A stretch of 30,953 bases of DNA from a virus. Both the position numbers and the translations under genes were made by a program. The notes under the pieces are model-generated. The model did no database searches. It saw only the letters and a list, made by a program, of their open reading frames with translations, and was not told the origin of the DNA. Within the stretch, counting starts at the first letter, position 1. Each line of letters starts with the position of its first letter. The stretch lies in the IMG/VR virus record IMGVR_UViG_3300033145_001867, positions 1 through 30,953 of that record, one strand, 5' to 3'. Below are positions 2,938 to 30,549 of the stretch, piece by piece.

Positions 2938-3009
2938 TGCGGAGTAGAGTAATGGTAACTCGCCAGCCTCATAAACTGGAATATGCAGGTTCGATTCCTG
3001 CCTCCGCTA
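2938..3009 (+). tRNA. tRNA with CAT anticodon (Met or Ile2 type), slightly degenerate
   Basis: A full cloverleaf can be drawn. Acceptor GCGGAG 2939-2944 pairs with CTCCGC 3002-3007, with a U-U mismatch at the outermost pair. D stem GAGT/ACTC (2947-2950, 2958-2961) has a GG-containing loop. Anticodon stem CCAG/CTGG has an extra C-A mismatch next to the loop (2967, 2975), and loop CTCATAA puts CAT at 2970-2972. The variable loop is 5 nt. T stem GCAGG/CCTGC (2985-2989, 2997-3001) has loop TTCGATT. The discriminator is A3009; CCA is not encoded. It lacks the three stacked G-C pairs of initiator tRNA, so it is an elongator or an Ile2 (lysidine) tRNA. It lies within the early operon and would be processed from that transcript. 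Confidence 0.85.
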
Positions 3010-3013
3010 CTAA

Positions 3014-24968: not shown

Positions 24969-25385
24969 ATGACTATCACCATCCAACAGATGCGAGAAAT
25001 TTATAAGTTAGCGAGGGCGTTTGATAACCAAGGATTTGTTATTCCGGATAAAATCAGAGATCGGTTGAATAGTAACCAGTTGCCCGAAATGGCTCAGGAA
25101 ATGATAAGTGATTTACACGGTGTTAGTGAATATCTAAAATCATTTGCAGAAAACCTTCTGATGCCTGCTTACTGGTCAGGCATAGAAAATGGGAAAGGTT
25201 TCGGATTATTCTGTGACGATGAAGGCAACGTAAATATTGAAGTTGACCGGCTCAGAGTCAGGAAACGCAGTGCTAATCCTGAAAACTTATTCCAACAAAT
25301 TCACGGTGTTTCCGGAACTCTAATTGTGAGTTCCGTGGGTAAAATAAAAATGTTCAAAAAAACAAAGAAAGGAACAGAACAATGA
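24969..25385 (+). CDS. Unrecognised tail-region protein
   Basis: The 138-residue product has a helical N-terminal half (MREIYKLARAFDNQGFVIPDKIRDRL, MAQEMISDLHGVSEYLKSFA) and a strand-rich second half (ENGKGFGLFCDDEGNVNIEVDRLRV, SGTLIVSSVGKIKMF). A GGAGGTG ribosome site is present and the stop overlaps the next start (ATGA). It may be a chaperone or accessory protein for the adjacent fibres. Not recognised. Confidence 0.45.
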   Translation: MTITIQQMREIYKLARAFDNQGFVIPDKIRDRLNSNQLPEMAQEMISDLHGVSEYLKSFAENLLMPAYWSGIENGKGFGLFCDDEGNVNIEVDRLRVRKRSANPENLFQQIHGVSGTLIVSSVGKIKMFKKTKKGTEQ

Positions 25386-25804
25386 GCAATTTCATGTATA
25401 ACAGAGGAAAAAAAGGCATCATGGATGCCAGCATCGATCTTGATAATGACACGCTGAAAGTTCTCTTAATTGATAATGCCGGGGATTATATTCCTAATCC
25501 TGACCATGACAACGTTTCGGACGTTGTCGCTAACGAGATGAGCGGCGGGAATTATTCAAGACAGTTGCTGGCAAACGTGGCTATTACGGAAGATGATTCC
25601 AACGATCTTTCCGTTATGGACGCCGATGATGTAACGTTTGCGAGTATTAGTGCCGGCACGGCAAAGGGAGCAATTATTTTTAAAGATACCGGGAATGATG
25701 CAACTTCGCCGCTAATTGCGTGGATTGACACTAATTTCCCGATCACTACAAACGGCGGCGATATTATTATACAATGGAGCGCCAACGGTATTCTTGCTTT
25801 CTAA
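25382..25804 (+). CDS. Conserved-type phage structural protein
   Basis: The 140-residue product matches a common phage pattern: YNRGKKGIMDASIDLDNDTLKVLLID at the start, a middle with 'NPDHDNVSDVVANEMSGGNY' and a strand-rich end (SISAGTAKGAIIFKDTGND, GGDIIIQWSANGILAF). Proteins of this kind are found in many tailed phages near fibres or capsid genes and are virion components. It is coupled to the preceding gene. Confidence 0.6.
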   Translation: MSNFMYNRGKKGIMDASIDLDNDTLKVLLIDNAGDYIPNPDHDNVSDVVANEMSGGNYSRQLLANVAITEDDSNDLSVMDADDVTFASISAGTAKGAIIFKDTGNDATSPLIAWIDTNFPITTNGGDIIIQWSANGILAF

Positions 25805-25847: not shown

Positions 25848-27497
25848 ATGGATAATATTAAAAACTTTGCGGTGGGGGAATTAAGTGGTACTCTTTCGAG
25901 TTCCGCCACCTCTTTAACTTTAGCAACAGGGCAAGGGAGCCGTTTTCCGACGGCTCCCTTCAATGCCGTTATTTGGGATTCGACGAATTATAGCGATGCG
26001 GCTATGGCTTTCCATGCTGGAAAAGCGGAGATCGTGCGGGTAACAGCGGTCACTGGCGATACTTTCACGATTGAGCGGGCTCAGGAAGGCACGACGGCGG
26101 TGGCTTTTTTGGACGCGAACGCAATATATAAGGTTGCGCTTGGTGTGACAAAAAAGACGGTGGATGATATAGTTAATTCTATGCCTTCCGAGGGTATGAC
26201 CGCAGCAGAACGTGCAACTATGAACGATATTATTGTAGATGTTGCTGAGAATGCCTATCGTCACAATTTAGATGATTTGGTTTATGATGACGGAATGTTT
26301 GATATATTTGCTAATTTGGATAAGATTTCAGGGAACACAAATACAGCAATTACAACTCTTGATGATGCTGACCTCAAAGGAAAGGCGTGCCTCGCTGAGG
26401 ATCTTGGTTCAGGAGAATATGGAGAACAATATAATGTAAGCACTCTTAGTTCTAATGTAAATAGTGATGTTGCAAAGAACGATGGTTTTACTTACACAGC
26501 AGGAATTTGTCTTAGCCCCGATGGCACTAAATTGTTTATTGCAGGAGTATGCGCTGGTAAAAATACTATATCTCGGTATGATTTATCTACTCCATTCGAC
26601 ATTTCAACTGCTTCTACCTATTATCATTTAGATGTCAATACTTACATATTTTCGGTCAGCTCTGTTTGGTTTAATAGTGATGGATCTAAAATGTATGTTT
26701 TAGGTCAAAGTCAATCTAGTAATAAGTGGGCAATTGCTACTTATAATTGCGTCAATAACAATTACGATAATTATGGGGCTACTTTTTCTTCTATACATGA
26801 TTTACCAAATGATCCACCTACTAATTGTAATGATATGCATTTTAAGAGCGATGGTCTTAAGTTATTCGTAATAACTTACCAATATGTATATGAATATAAT
26901 TTATCTGTGGCTTATGATATGTCAACGCTTTCTTACGTTAGGTCTGTTAATATATATTCATACGCCGAGGAAAACGATCATAGGGGACTCGCTTTTAGTC
27001 ATGATGGAACAAAAATGATTGTTACTGGTACGGTAAATCAATCTATATATGAATATGATTTATCTGTGGCTTATGATATATCAACGCTTTCTTACGTTAG
27101 ATCAGCGGCACTAACGGGAATATTAGGTATATTTTTCAATAGTGATGGTACTATGTTATTTACAGTAGATAATGACGAGTTAATAGATTCTTGGGATGTA
27201 GGGGAAATGGTATATCCTTATTATTCTACTGGAGATATAACCTCTTCATCGAAAGTCTTTAATTTTGTACCAAGTAAAGTAGTAATTAGTCATGATGCAG
27301 ATGTTCCGGAAGGGGCAAGTATTACTTATGACATTATAGACCAGTATGGTCATACGGTTAATGTGGCAAATATTGATGAAGAAGTTGTTTTAACGGGAAT
27401 TACAGGTAACGAAATTACTATTAAAGTTAATTTTGTTGATGAAGACACTGCAACAACTCCCGCTTTATATTCATACGCTTGTTTCTTTAAGGAGTAA
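25848..27497 (+). CDS. Receptor-binding fibre with beta-propeller-like blades
   Basis: The 549-residue product has an N-terminal fibre-base domain typical of tail fibres (APFNAVIWDSTNYSDAAMAFHAG, KAEIVRVTAVTGDTFTIERAQ, residues about 35-90). From about residue 220 to 460 repeated units read like blades: SPDGTKLFIAG, NSDGSKMYVLG, KSDGLKLFVIT, SHDGTKMIVTG, NSDGTMLFTVD, each followed by a strand with 'YDLS' (YEYNLSVAYDMSTLSYV). The C-terminus (about 465-549) is a beta-sandwich. G+C falls markedly after about 26150, which suggests a swapped receptor-binding module. AAGGGA precedes the start. Confidence 0.75.
   Translation: MDNIKNFAVGELSGTLSSSATSLTLATGQGSRFPTAPFNAVIWDSTNYSDAAMAFHAGKAEIVRVTAVTGDTFTIERAQEGTTAVAFLDANAIYKVALGVTKKTVDDIVNSMPSEGMTAAERATMNDIIVDVAENAYRHNLDDLVYDDGMFDIFANLDKISGNTNTAITTLDDADLKGKACLAEDLGSGEYGEQYNVSTLSSNVNSDVAKNDGFTYTAGICLSPDGTKLFIAGVCAGKNTISRYDLSTPFDISTASTYYHLDVNTYIFSVSSVWFNSDGSKMYVLGQSQSSNKWAIATYNCVNNNYDNYGATFSSIHDLPNDPPTNCNDMHFKSDGLKLFVITYQYVYEYNLSVAYDMSTLSYVRSVNIYSYAEENDHRGLAFSHDGTKMIVTGTVNQSIYEYDLSVAYDISTLSYVRSAALTGILGIFFNSDGTMLFTVDNDELIDSWDVGEMVYPYYSTGDITSSSKVFNFVPSKVVISHDADVPEGASITYDIIDQYGHTVNVANIDEEVVLTGITGNEITIKVNFVDEDTATTPALYSYACFFKE
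26889..27100 (+). repeat. Direct repeat of 53 bp, offset 159 bp, in the fibre gene
   Basis: Positions 26889-26941 and 27048-27100 differ at only two of 53 bases. They encode the strand YEYNLSVAYDMSTLSYVR and its near copy. The offset equals 53 codons, one blade. The rest of the blade differs, so this is either a recent recombination/gene conversion or strong constraint at DNA level. Confidence 0.85.
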
Positions 27498-27705: not shown

Positions 27706-30549
27706 ATGTCATACGCTAATTCGACATACGGGCAAGGCGCATACGGCTCAAGCCTGCAAAAAATAGCACAAACAGTAGCCGTCGCGCTTCTTAGTGTGAG
27801 CGTGACGGTCAGCGCTGTCACGGTCGTCGTAAAATCTAACCCCGGTTGTATCAGCGAAGACGTCAGCGTTTATAATAGCCACGTTAAGGTCTATGCTAAG
27901 CCTGGGCGAATAGACGAATCTGTTAATGTTTACAATTGTGCTGTCTGGGCAGGTATCGCAATTAATCCGGAAAGGATCGTTGACAGTCTTGAGATTTATT
28001 CCAGTTCGTTAATGATCGGAGAGGCGAGGCTTTTACAGGTTCGGATAAGTGATAGTTTAGATATATACACCCCGAATATTAGTGTTAAATCAAAAATTGA
28101 ACGCGTTACAGGCGTTCTAAACATCTACAATCCAAGTATAAAACTTAAATCTTACCCTGACTGTATTACTGACAGCATATCTCTATATACTCCGAATCTA
28201 AGAGTATATACCAAGTCTGAGCGAATAACCGATTCGATTGAATTATTTACTCTGAAAATTGAGGTCAAGTCTAATTCAACGACAATAAATGAACCGATAG
28301 ACGTTTATTCCGTTTCTATTGTTGTCAAATCTTATCAAGAGAGAATTGTCGATAGTCTTGAGATTTACGAACCGAACGCAAGTATCAAGGCGTTTGTGGA
28401 TCGGATAGTCAAAGAGATGTTTGTGGTTGACGCCAACATAACAGTAAAATCACATCCGGAAAGATTTTTGTTAAACCTGAATCTCCACGAGCCGAATCTT
28501 GTTTGTGTATCTCACCCGGATTTAATAATCAAAAATCTGAACGTATATACGCCAGTTGCATCCGTTAAATCCATTGTTGACAGAATAACCGAAGATGTGG
28601 CATTATTTAATATAAAAACGGTTATCTACTCCAAGCCCGAACAGATGGGGGATTCAATTGAAATCCGGACTTACAAGATTAAGGTTGTCTCAAGTCCCGA
28701 AAGAATAGATAATGATATTCAGGTATATATCGGACGCGCAATCGTTAAGGCTTGCCCGGTAAGAATTGCGGACAGTCTTGAGATTTACGAGCCGAATCTC
28801 GTTGTAAAGTCTATCGCTGACCGAATAGTTGAGGACATTACAATTTCCAATAATAAGTGTGTTGTTGTCTGTAATGTTGATACTATTTCAGGCGACCTGG
28901 GTTTATTTACGCCATTCCCAAAAGTTTGTGGTAAGCCTCAAAGGGTTGTTTTTGAGATTTACTACCCGGCGTTCACTGTAATTTTCGGCACGTTGACCGT
29001 GCCGATTACCCAAACGATATATCTGGCTGAAACCGACATTCTTCAGTCGCCGACTGTGATCGTGAAGTCCATAGTTGACACGATCGAATTAGACGTTCAG
29101 ATATTTGCGCCCGTCATAGAGACCGGGCAGTATACGATTGTGACGGAAATCGGGGGGCCGGGCTGGTTTGTCGGCGATATATTGCAAGCGCAGCGATATG
29201 ATTTCGACCGGTATGGCAACCTGGTTGAAATCTATAATATCTATGCGCATGTGCTAAATATACCTCAAGACAGTAGGTATGATATTCAGATTCTCGGCAC
29301 CCTGAGCGATTATAAAAAGTTTGAAGTCTTTTACGACGGTATAGAGTTCGCGCGGATCGGCAATGCTGTAAATGCCGACAGGCAAGATAGTATAGTAATC
29401 TCCAGTCTGCTGCCCGGGAGCCCGTTTATTGATGTTGTGGATGGAATTGACAGCCTGGGCAGCATCGGTAATATTGAACATTTGAAAACAAGGATTGGCA
29501 GATTAGACGGGCTAAATGATCCTGACTTCCCGAACATGGGAGATGGGCGGCAATATGGCATCTACACGAAAAACATCTACGCTAAAGGCGAGTTCATAAT
29601 ACTGAATCCGGATGGCGTGCGAAGCGATATTAACGTTGAAGAGGGGGCGACCAACGGGGCTGAATGGGGAACGAATCTTAGTGGCGTACCCAATAGATTT
29701 AAGGACGATGTCTCTACTACTGGTATATATGTAACACCTAATTATATGGGGTTCTATGATCAGGGCACAACAAGTTGGCCAATCAAGATAGCAAATGAAG
29801 CGGGAATTGGGAAGCTTTTTGTCGGCAATCAAGCGGCCTCCAAATATCTTTCTTGGAATGGTACAGATTTAATCACATCCGGCAATTTCTATATTAAAAA
29901 TCCTACACAAGTGCGTAGCGATATTAATGTAGAAGAAGGAGCTACTAACGGAGCTGAATGGGACTCAAATTTAAATGGTGTGCCAGATTACTTAGAAAAA
30001 ACTGATAATGTGACAGAGACGGGGATCTATTTTACGCCTAATCATATTGGTTTTTATGATGCAACCGTTCATGATTGGTTGATACACATATTTAATGCTA
30101 ACGGCGCAGGGCAATTTGAATTTAAGGATACGTATGGAAGCCGGTTCGCATTCCTTGGCGACGGTTCAAGAATGACCCTTGAATTGGTATCGCCTTCCGA
30201 CTATGAGGGTGAAGTCTTCAAAATTAAGGATGAGGATGGAAGCGCGATAGTGCTGGGGCGGGCAGGTCCAACGGAGTGGTTATACTGGTTAGATAATAAC
30301 AGCGCTTTTTGCGGTTCGGTTGGGATGCACGTAAGTTACGGCTTTATGCAGTTCAGGTCCGATGCAATAGCTAAGGCAGGCGGCTGGGATAACTTCTACT
30401 TTCACGATACAACAAAAGGTCAATTCTCGTCGTTGGGCTTTGATTCTGAGGGCAATCCTGTATTCTGTCTTGGCGGCGGAAAAATACGATGGAATACCAC
30501 GCTAAGCCGGCTTGAGAAGAACAATAGCGGGACATGGACTGAATTATAA
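27706..30549 (+). CDS. Large tail fibre with 20-residue tandem repeats
   Basis: The 947-residue product has a hydrophobic N-terminal region (VAVALLSVSVTVSAVTVVV, 24-42), about eighteen tandem repeats of 20 residues (residues 40-384; consensus hxVKSxPERIxDSLEIYxPN), a spacer and a middle region to about residue 620, and two copies of a fibre domain with the motif VRSDINVEEGATNGAEW (638-654 and 736-752). The C-terminus is strand-rich. Each repeat alternates hydrophobic residues, as expected for two strands, so a beta-solenoid shaft is likely. It follows the receptor-binding fibre and precedes the last small gene. The role in host contact or side fibres is inferred. Confidence 0.75.
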   Translation: MSYANSTYGQGAYGSSLQKIAQTVAVALLSVSVTVSAVTVVVKSNPGCISEDVSVYNSHVKVYAKPGRIDESVNVYNCAVWAGIAINPERIVDSLEIYSSSLMIGEARLLQVRISDSLDIYTPNISVKSKIERVTGVLNIYNPSIKLKSYPDCITDSISLYTPNLRVYTKSERITDSIELFTLKIEVKSNSTTINEPIDVYSVSIVVKSYQERIVDSLEIYEPNASIKAFVDRIVKEMFVVDANITVKSHPERFLLNLNLHEPNLVCVSHPDLIIKNLNVYTPVASVKSIVDRITEDVALFNIKTVIYSKPEQMGDSIEIRTYKIKVVSSPERIDNDIQVYIGRAIVKACPVRIADSLEIYEPNLVVKSIADRIVEDITISNNKCVVVCNVDTISGDLGLFTPFPKVCGKPQRVVFEIYYPAFTVIFGTLTVPITQTIYLAETDILQSPTVIVKSIVDTIELDVQIFAPVIETGQYTIVTEIGGPGWFVGDILQAQRYDFDRYGNLVEIYNIYAHVLNIPQDSRYDIQILGTLSDYKKFEVFYDGIEFARIGNAVNADRQDSIVISSLLPGSPFIDVVDGIDSLGSIGNIEHLKTRIGRLDGLNDPDFPNMGDGRQYGIYTKNIYAKGEFIILNPDGVRSDINVEEGATNGAEWGTNLSGVPNRFKDDVSTTGIYVTPNYMGFYDQGTTSWPIKIANEAGIGKLFVGNQAASKYLSWNGTDLITSGNFYIKNPTQVRSDINVEEGATNGAEWDSNLNGVPDYLEKTDNVTETGIYFTPNHIGFYDATVHDWLIHIFNANGAGQFEFKDTYGSRFAFLGDGSRMTLELVSPSDYEGEVFKIKDEDGSAIVLGRAGPTEWLYWLDNNSAFCGSVGMHVSYGFMQFRSDAIAKAGGWDNFYFHDTTKGQFSSLGFDSEGNPVFCLGGGKIRWNTTLSRLEKNNSGTWTEL
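27823..28857 (+). repeat. Tandem 60-bp (20-residue) protein repeats
   Basis: Residues 40-384 divide into eighteen units, sixteen of exactly 20 residues and two of 22 and 23. The most constant positions are K/S in 'VKS', E/D-R-I before the turn, S-L-E-I-Y in the second strand, and P-N at the end. Codons in neighbouring units differ a lot, so the repeats are old, though segments such as GACAGTCTTGAGATTTA recur exactly in units 3, 9 and 16. Confidence 0.8.

Follow-up and report, generated by a model that had tools for sequence, protein, structure and literature searches.

A 20-residue repeat as the probable stalk of the distal half of a putatively split tail fibre in a Mu/B3-like phage

We analysed a viral DNA stretch of 30,953 nucleotides (IMG/VR record IMGVR_UViG_3300033145_001867, positions 1–30,953; hereafter the window) in which a tail fibre gene encodes an array of 20-residue repeats ahead of a domain common to Bacteroides phage fibres (Table 1). 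In our preferred reading, to which we give a probability of roughly 0.6, the repeats are a beta-structured stalk bearing the distal half of a tail-tip fibre that is split between two genes. The stalk would be elongated and probably homotrimeric, by likeness to most phage fibres, which are homotrimers, and it would hold module m2 and the probable receptor-binding C-terminal part (29662–30549) away from the tail tip. An ancestral fibre made as one polypeptide, with module m1 followed by m2, would have been split at the m1/m2 junction, the split presumably being the derived state, leaving the distal half with an N-terminus and a repeat stalk of its own. This explanation draws on the 20-residue periodicity, on a protein pattern kept at saturated codons and on the tail-fibre family of m2; on the presence of m1 and m2 in a single open reading frame (ORF) in most relatives and of m1 at the end of separate genes in two phages; and on the synteny with a second contig that has a repeat of its own, together with the surrounding tail, head and MuA/MuB-like genes.

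Table 1 Features of the fibre region of the window
Feature	Position	Strand	Basis
138-aa protein ending in module m1	24969..25385	+	PHROG and profile search
phrog_644 family protein	25382..25804	+	38% identical to L006-contig counterpart
549-aa tail fibre protein	25848..27497	+	N-terminus 33% identical to L006-contig counterpart
947-aa tail fibre protein	27706..30549	+	Single open frame
N-terminal segment, residues 1–39	27706..27822	+	YGQGAYG motif and Val-rich stretch (sequence)
18 repeat units, residues 40–404	27823..28917	+	Autocorrelation and segmentation
Two degenerate units, residues 405–450	28918..29055	+	Segmentation
Last clear unit VIVKSIVDTIELDVQIFAPV, residues 451–470	29056..29115	+	Segmentation
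Module m2, domain common to Bacteroides phage minor tail and tail fibre proteins	29152..29661	+	tblastn, HMM
Fibre C-terminal part	29662..30549	+	Position after m2

The repeat is evident from the protein sequence itself. Across fibre residues 31–480, BLOSUM autocorrelation has its maxima at lags 20, 40, 100, 60, 80 and 120 (0.52 to 0.32), while the best of 200 shuffles reaches −0.37 over all lags from 5 to 130. The initial annotation had placed eighteen units at 27823–28857; the repeat is real, but that span contains 17 units (residues 40–384) and the 18th (residues 385–404) ends at 28917. With the phase adopted here (unit 1, residues 40–59; unit 2, residues 60–79), the units of residues 40–404 are 20, 20, 22 and 23 residues long, followed by fourteen of exactly 20, which bears out the lengths of 22 and 23 proposed for units 3 and 4, and the unit columns agree with the proposed consensus hxVKSxPERIxDSLEIYxPN. 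Counting the two degenerate units and the last clear one, the array comprises about twenty units (~21).

Mean identity among the sixteen 20-residue units is just 23% (120 pairs, with units 1 and 2 entered in a phase shifted by one residue), and identical residues between units share codons in 215 of 552 cases, compared with 205.7 expected from codon usage. Low identity and codon sharing at chance level indicate an old protein architecture rather than a young DNA repeat, and the pattern suggests long divergence with the protein pattern kept by selection. The closest pair of units (starting at residues 205 and 345) is 65% identical in amino acids and 68% in nucleotides. Exact recurrence of DNA segments, noted at the outset, holds for short stretches only: 14 nt recur in three units (within 27967–27998, 28336–28367 and 28756–28787) and 17 nt in two of those three, and Tandem Repeats Finder detected no array in the repeat region. 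A young DNA tandem repeat is ruled out by the absent array and the saturated codons.

The first description of the repeat as one not recognised among fibres holds across the libraries searched, since the repeats have no match in Pfam, NCBIfam, PDB or phage sequences. Scans of viral contigs and genomes with single proteins returned no relative; the repeat profile gave 53 pattern matches in viral contigs, none of which was confirmed, and 0 of 164 in genomes, a set that contains no positive control. Using tblastn, neither the window repeats nor those of the second contig matched phages at better than E 7–9, and in plasmids only m2 was matched, so that no second copy of the 20-residue repeat was found in the viral contigs, genomes, phages and plasmids searched. 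Among the titles listed from an open-licence library, none concerned a comparable phage shaft repeat of 20 residues.

Structure prediction gives the shaft no backing: AlphaFold2 monomer models reach a pLDDT of 41.9 for five units (3 alignment rows) and 40.3 for residues 1–700 (10 rows, the other nine mainly over m2). Because m2, the intended positive control, also reached a pLDDT of only about 44–64, the low values for the repeat carry little weight. Foldseek found no match at E ≤ 0.001 with the low-confidence model, whose quality makes the result not meaningful. Within the units, columns 3, 10, 14 and 16 are hydrophobic in 93–100% of the fourteen regular copies and column 17 in 79%. The propensity profile (Chou–Fasman values) has three strand zones and three turn zones per unit, and the sequence statistics weakly favour three short strands per 20-residue unit as the sub-structure.

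Two fold types compatible with a stalk are given equal weight, each as a tentative candidate. One is a single-chain beta-solenoid, in which one unit would be one coil with three faces (strands at about positions 1–4, 9–11 and 14–17; turns at 5–8, 12–13 and 18–20), forming a stiff rod. Hydrophobic power sits in the periods 20/3, 20/6 and 20/9 (column-permutation p = 0.0075) and beta-minus-turn propensity follows the third harmonic (p = 0.019), but these values become 0.08 after correction for the choice of harmonic and fold, and 0.10 after correction for harmonic choice, respectively. In the AlphaFold2 models, which are of low confidence, strands or bridges fall near unit positions 1–4, 10 and 14–17; regular solenoids, however, often give good structure models, which a pLDDT of about 40 is not, and Gly is scarce in the units (5 in 280 residues).

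The other candidate is a trimeric shaft resembling the triple beta-spiral of the adenovirus fibre and reovirus sigma1, with an insertion giving the 20-residue unit. In those fibres too, a distal head is preceded by short beta repeats with Pro or Gly at the turn, and 57% of the fourteen regular units of the window repeat have Pro or Gly at column 19. The triple beta-spiral template, as set out in a figure legend (PMC3150272), spans 15 residues with sites c, e, g, k and m hydrophobic and site j Pro or Gly. With one inserted residue it fits the repeat at p = 0.02–0.04, whereas the strict form of this spacing fits at chance level (p = 0.44), the repeat has no sequence match to these proteins or others in PDB, and site c is polar, with a hydrophobic residue in only 7% of units. 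A plain triple beta-spiral was accordingly rejected, as the strict spacing fails and the one-insert fit gives up site c. A left-handed beta-helix was also rejected: hexapeptide starts have a density of 0.071 compared with 0.048 in shuffles (p = 0.027), where nearly 1 in 6 is required.

A string of small beta-sandwich domains, Ig-like or otherwise, with about four units per domain, is improbable. The two to three strands per unit suggested by the AlphaFold2 models would supply at least 8 strands in four units, but the periodicity is strongest at lag 20, lag 40 is not exceeded by lags 80 and 100, and the repeats have no Pfam match. Separate Ig-type domains, which the initial annotation had named as the outcome that would speak against a shaft, were not predicted, and the autocorrelation shows no super-period of 80–100 residues.

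The fibre shaft that had been proposed for the repeats is well supported by their position: they lie among the tail genes, on the N-terminal side of a tail-fibre domain shared with Bacteroides phages. Residues 545–650 of the 947-aa protein match the tail fiber protein family phrog_33450 (1.7e-9, PHROG search), and residues 544–652 match 57 phage records by tblastn (51 Bacteroides phages and six labelled Bacteriophage sp.). Module m2 matches two PHROG families (phrog_33450 and phrog_22546), one of them annotated as tail fiber; its HMM matches the window at 5.2e-56, with the window sequence among the training rows, and its profile found nothing in PDB under E 0.39. Scans with the m2 alignment confirmed 84 viral loci, of which 80 were kept, and gave 35 loci in genomes; in two overlapping Bacteroidota samples, m2 matches at E ≤ 1e-6 occurred in 5 of 395 genomes for the phylum of G001 and in 8 of 391 genomes for the class of G022. 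Among the best 12 matches listed, m2 is 32–36% identical over about 105 residues to Bacteroides phage tail fibre and minor tail proteins, including those of hankyphages, which are described as transposable (PMC12135933), a trait that the gene content of the window also indicates. Unlike the window fibre, Bacteroides phage fibres have m1 and m2 in one polypeptide and no 20-residue stalk before m2.

Residues 1–39 of the fibre, possibly the attachment end, have no family match, and residues 33–73 have weak PHROG matches to phrog_21271 and phrog_5758 (E 0.02–0.6). A scan with the motif M-x-YGxGxYG returned mainly short basic proteins and was uninformative on the fibre. The gene also contains an internal duplication (29617–29690 and 29911–29984, 77% identical DNA) that starts just before the C-terminal part.

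Profiles of m1 and m2 were each trained on five sequences, for m1 including the window and L123 and for m2 including the window; across 139 stretches they placed m2 in 139 ORFs. Leaving out m2 segments of under 60 residues (L258 and L259) and those more than 90% alike gave 66 representatives of this Bacteroidota-phage fibre family. In 60 of these, m1 lies upstream of m2 within the same ORF, always in the order m1 then m2 (60/60) and with a median gap of 12 residues. The six representatives without m1 in the same ORF are the window, L006, L132, which looks frameshifted, L257, cut off at its beginning by the edge of its stretch, and L131 and L254, in which m1 did not exceed the profile threshold. 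Only in the window and the contig comprising L006 and L123 are m1 and m2 found in separate genes several kilobases apart, with m2 behind a repeat region. The window m1 (25227–25370) ends 4 residues before the C-terminus of its gene (24969–25385). It is highly improbable that m1 and m2 are really one gene in this phage and that the split arose as an artefact of assembly or a frameshift: L048 and L132 do carry m1 and m2 in overlapping, frameshift-like frames, but in the window 3.8 kb and two long genes separate the modules, and the L006/L123 contig independently shows the same kind of arrangement.

This second contig (IMGVR_UViG_3300001242_000057; L006, P0002) is clearly the nearest viral contig by m2 (39% identity, query residues 1–158, E 2e-28). 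Its m1 is likewise split off, with the m1 gene at L123:1–846 and the m2 fibre gene at L006:4551–6644; m1 ends 0 residues before the C-terminus of its gene, and the neighbouring genes, including part of those between the m1 and m2 genes, are common to both phages. One of the window genes in this interval, the 549-aa tail fibre protein (25848–27497), has beta-propeller-like repeats (Pfam SGL, 1.4e-6). As in the window, the L006 fibre has a repeat region between its N-terminus and m2: residues 16–150 are internally repetitive (self-alignment 98 compared with at most 64 in 60 shuffles, at offset 43), with about six units of 20–23 residues by eye, which differ in sequence from those of the window. 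MAFFT set the two repeats in a sensible register. When the window units were made into a circular profile and scored on ORFs of at least 120 aa (2,911 ORFs), the profile gave 12.4 on the L006 repeats compared with 11.4 ± 1.9 for shuffles (251 of 1,000 at or above). The two repeats were consequently rejected as proven homologues, the profile scoring those of L006 no better than shuffles; the stalks occupy the same place and are similar in build, and homology is not claimed. Among the tail-fibre genes of this contig, between those for m1 and m2, a GIY-YIG endonuclease domain is encoded at L006:3264–3935, and a homing endonuclease at this site could be relevant to the origin of the fibre split.

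Solved phage fibre shafts comprise a small set of beta folds, and the 20-residue repeat has no sequence match to any of them. Among phage tail proteins, T4 gp5 also has a regular beta repeat, its triple-stranded beta-helix being described with an 8-residue VxGxxxxx unit (PMC4576200), whereas the window unit has 20 residues. With some 21 copies of an unmatched unit, the fibre is a natural test case for fibrous-protein structure prediction. If the repeats are indeed the stalk of a split fibre, they may be a length-adjustable rod, and the split-gene arrangement would show how distal fibre parts become modular, although the split with a stalk is seen in two phages only. A bolder proposal, which we consider rather unlikely, is that the repeat represents an as yet unsolved beta-fibre fold, a single-chain or trimeric stalk with three strands per unit, and that the m1/m2 split is the route by which these phages gain stalks of adjustable length.

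Judged from its sequence, the window is a transposable phage of the Mu/B3-like kind. It encodes a MuA-like transposase (phrog_310, 4.8e-15) and a MuB-like protein (phrog_296, 4.5e-17; both PHROG search), and tblastn of the MuA-like protein leads to B3-like phages. Its head and tail genes include those for the portal, terminase, head protease, major head protein, neck and tape-measure proteins. A Bacteroidota host is suggested by m2 and by the terminase, which is weakly similar to those of Flavobacterium and Winogradskyella phages (24–25%, E 5e-6 and 2e-4). A tRNA-Met (CAT) gene lies among the early genes at 2938–3010 (Rfam, 62.4 bits), and at the left end a small secreted-looking SH3-domain protein (PF08239; 181–651) adjoins a CI-like repressor.
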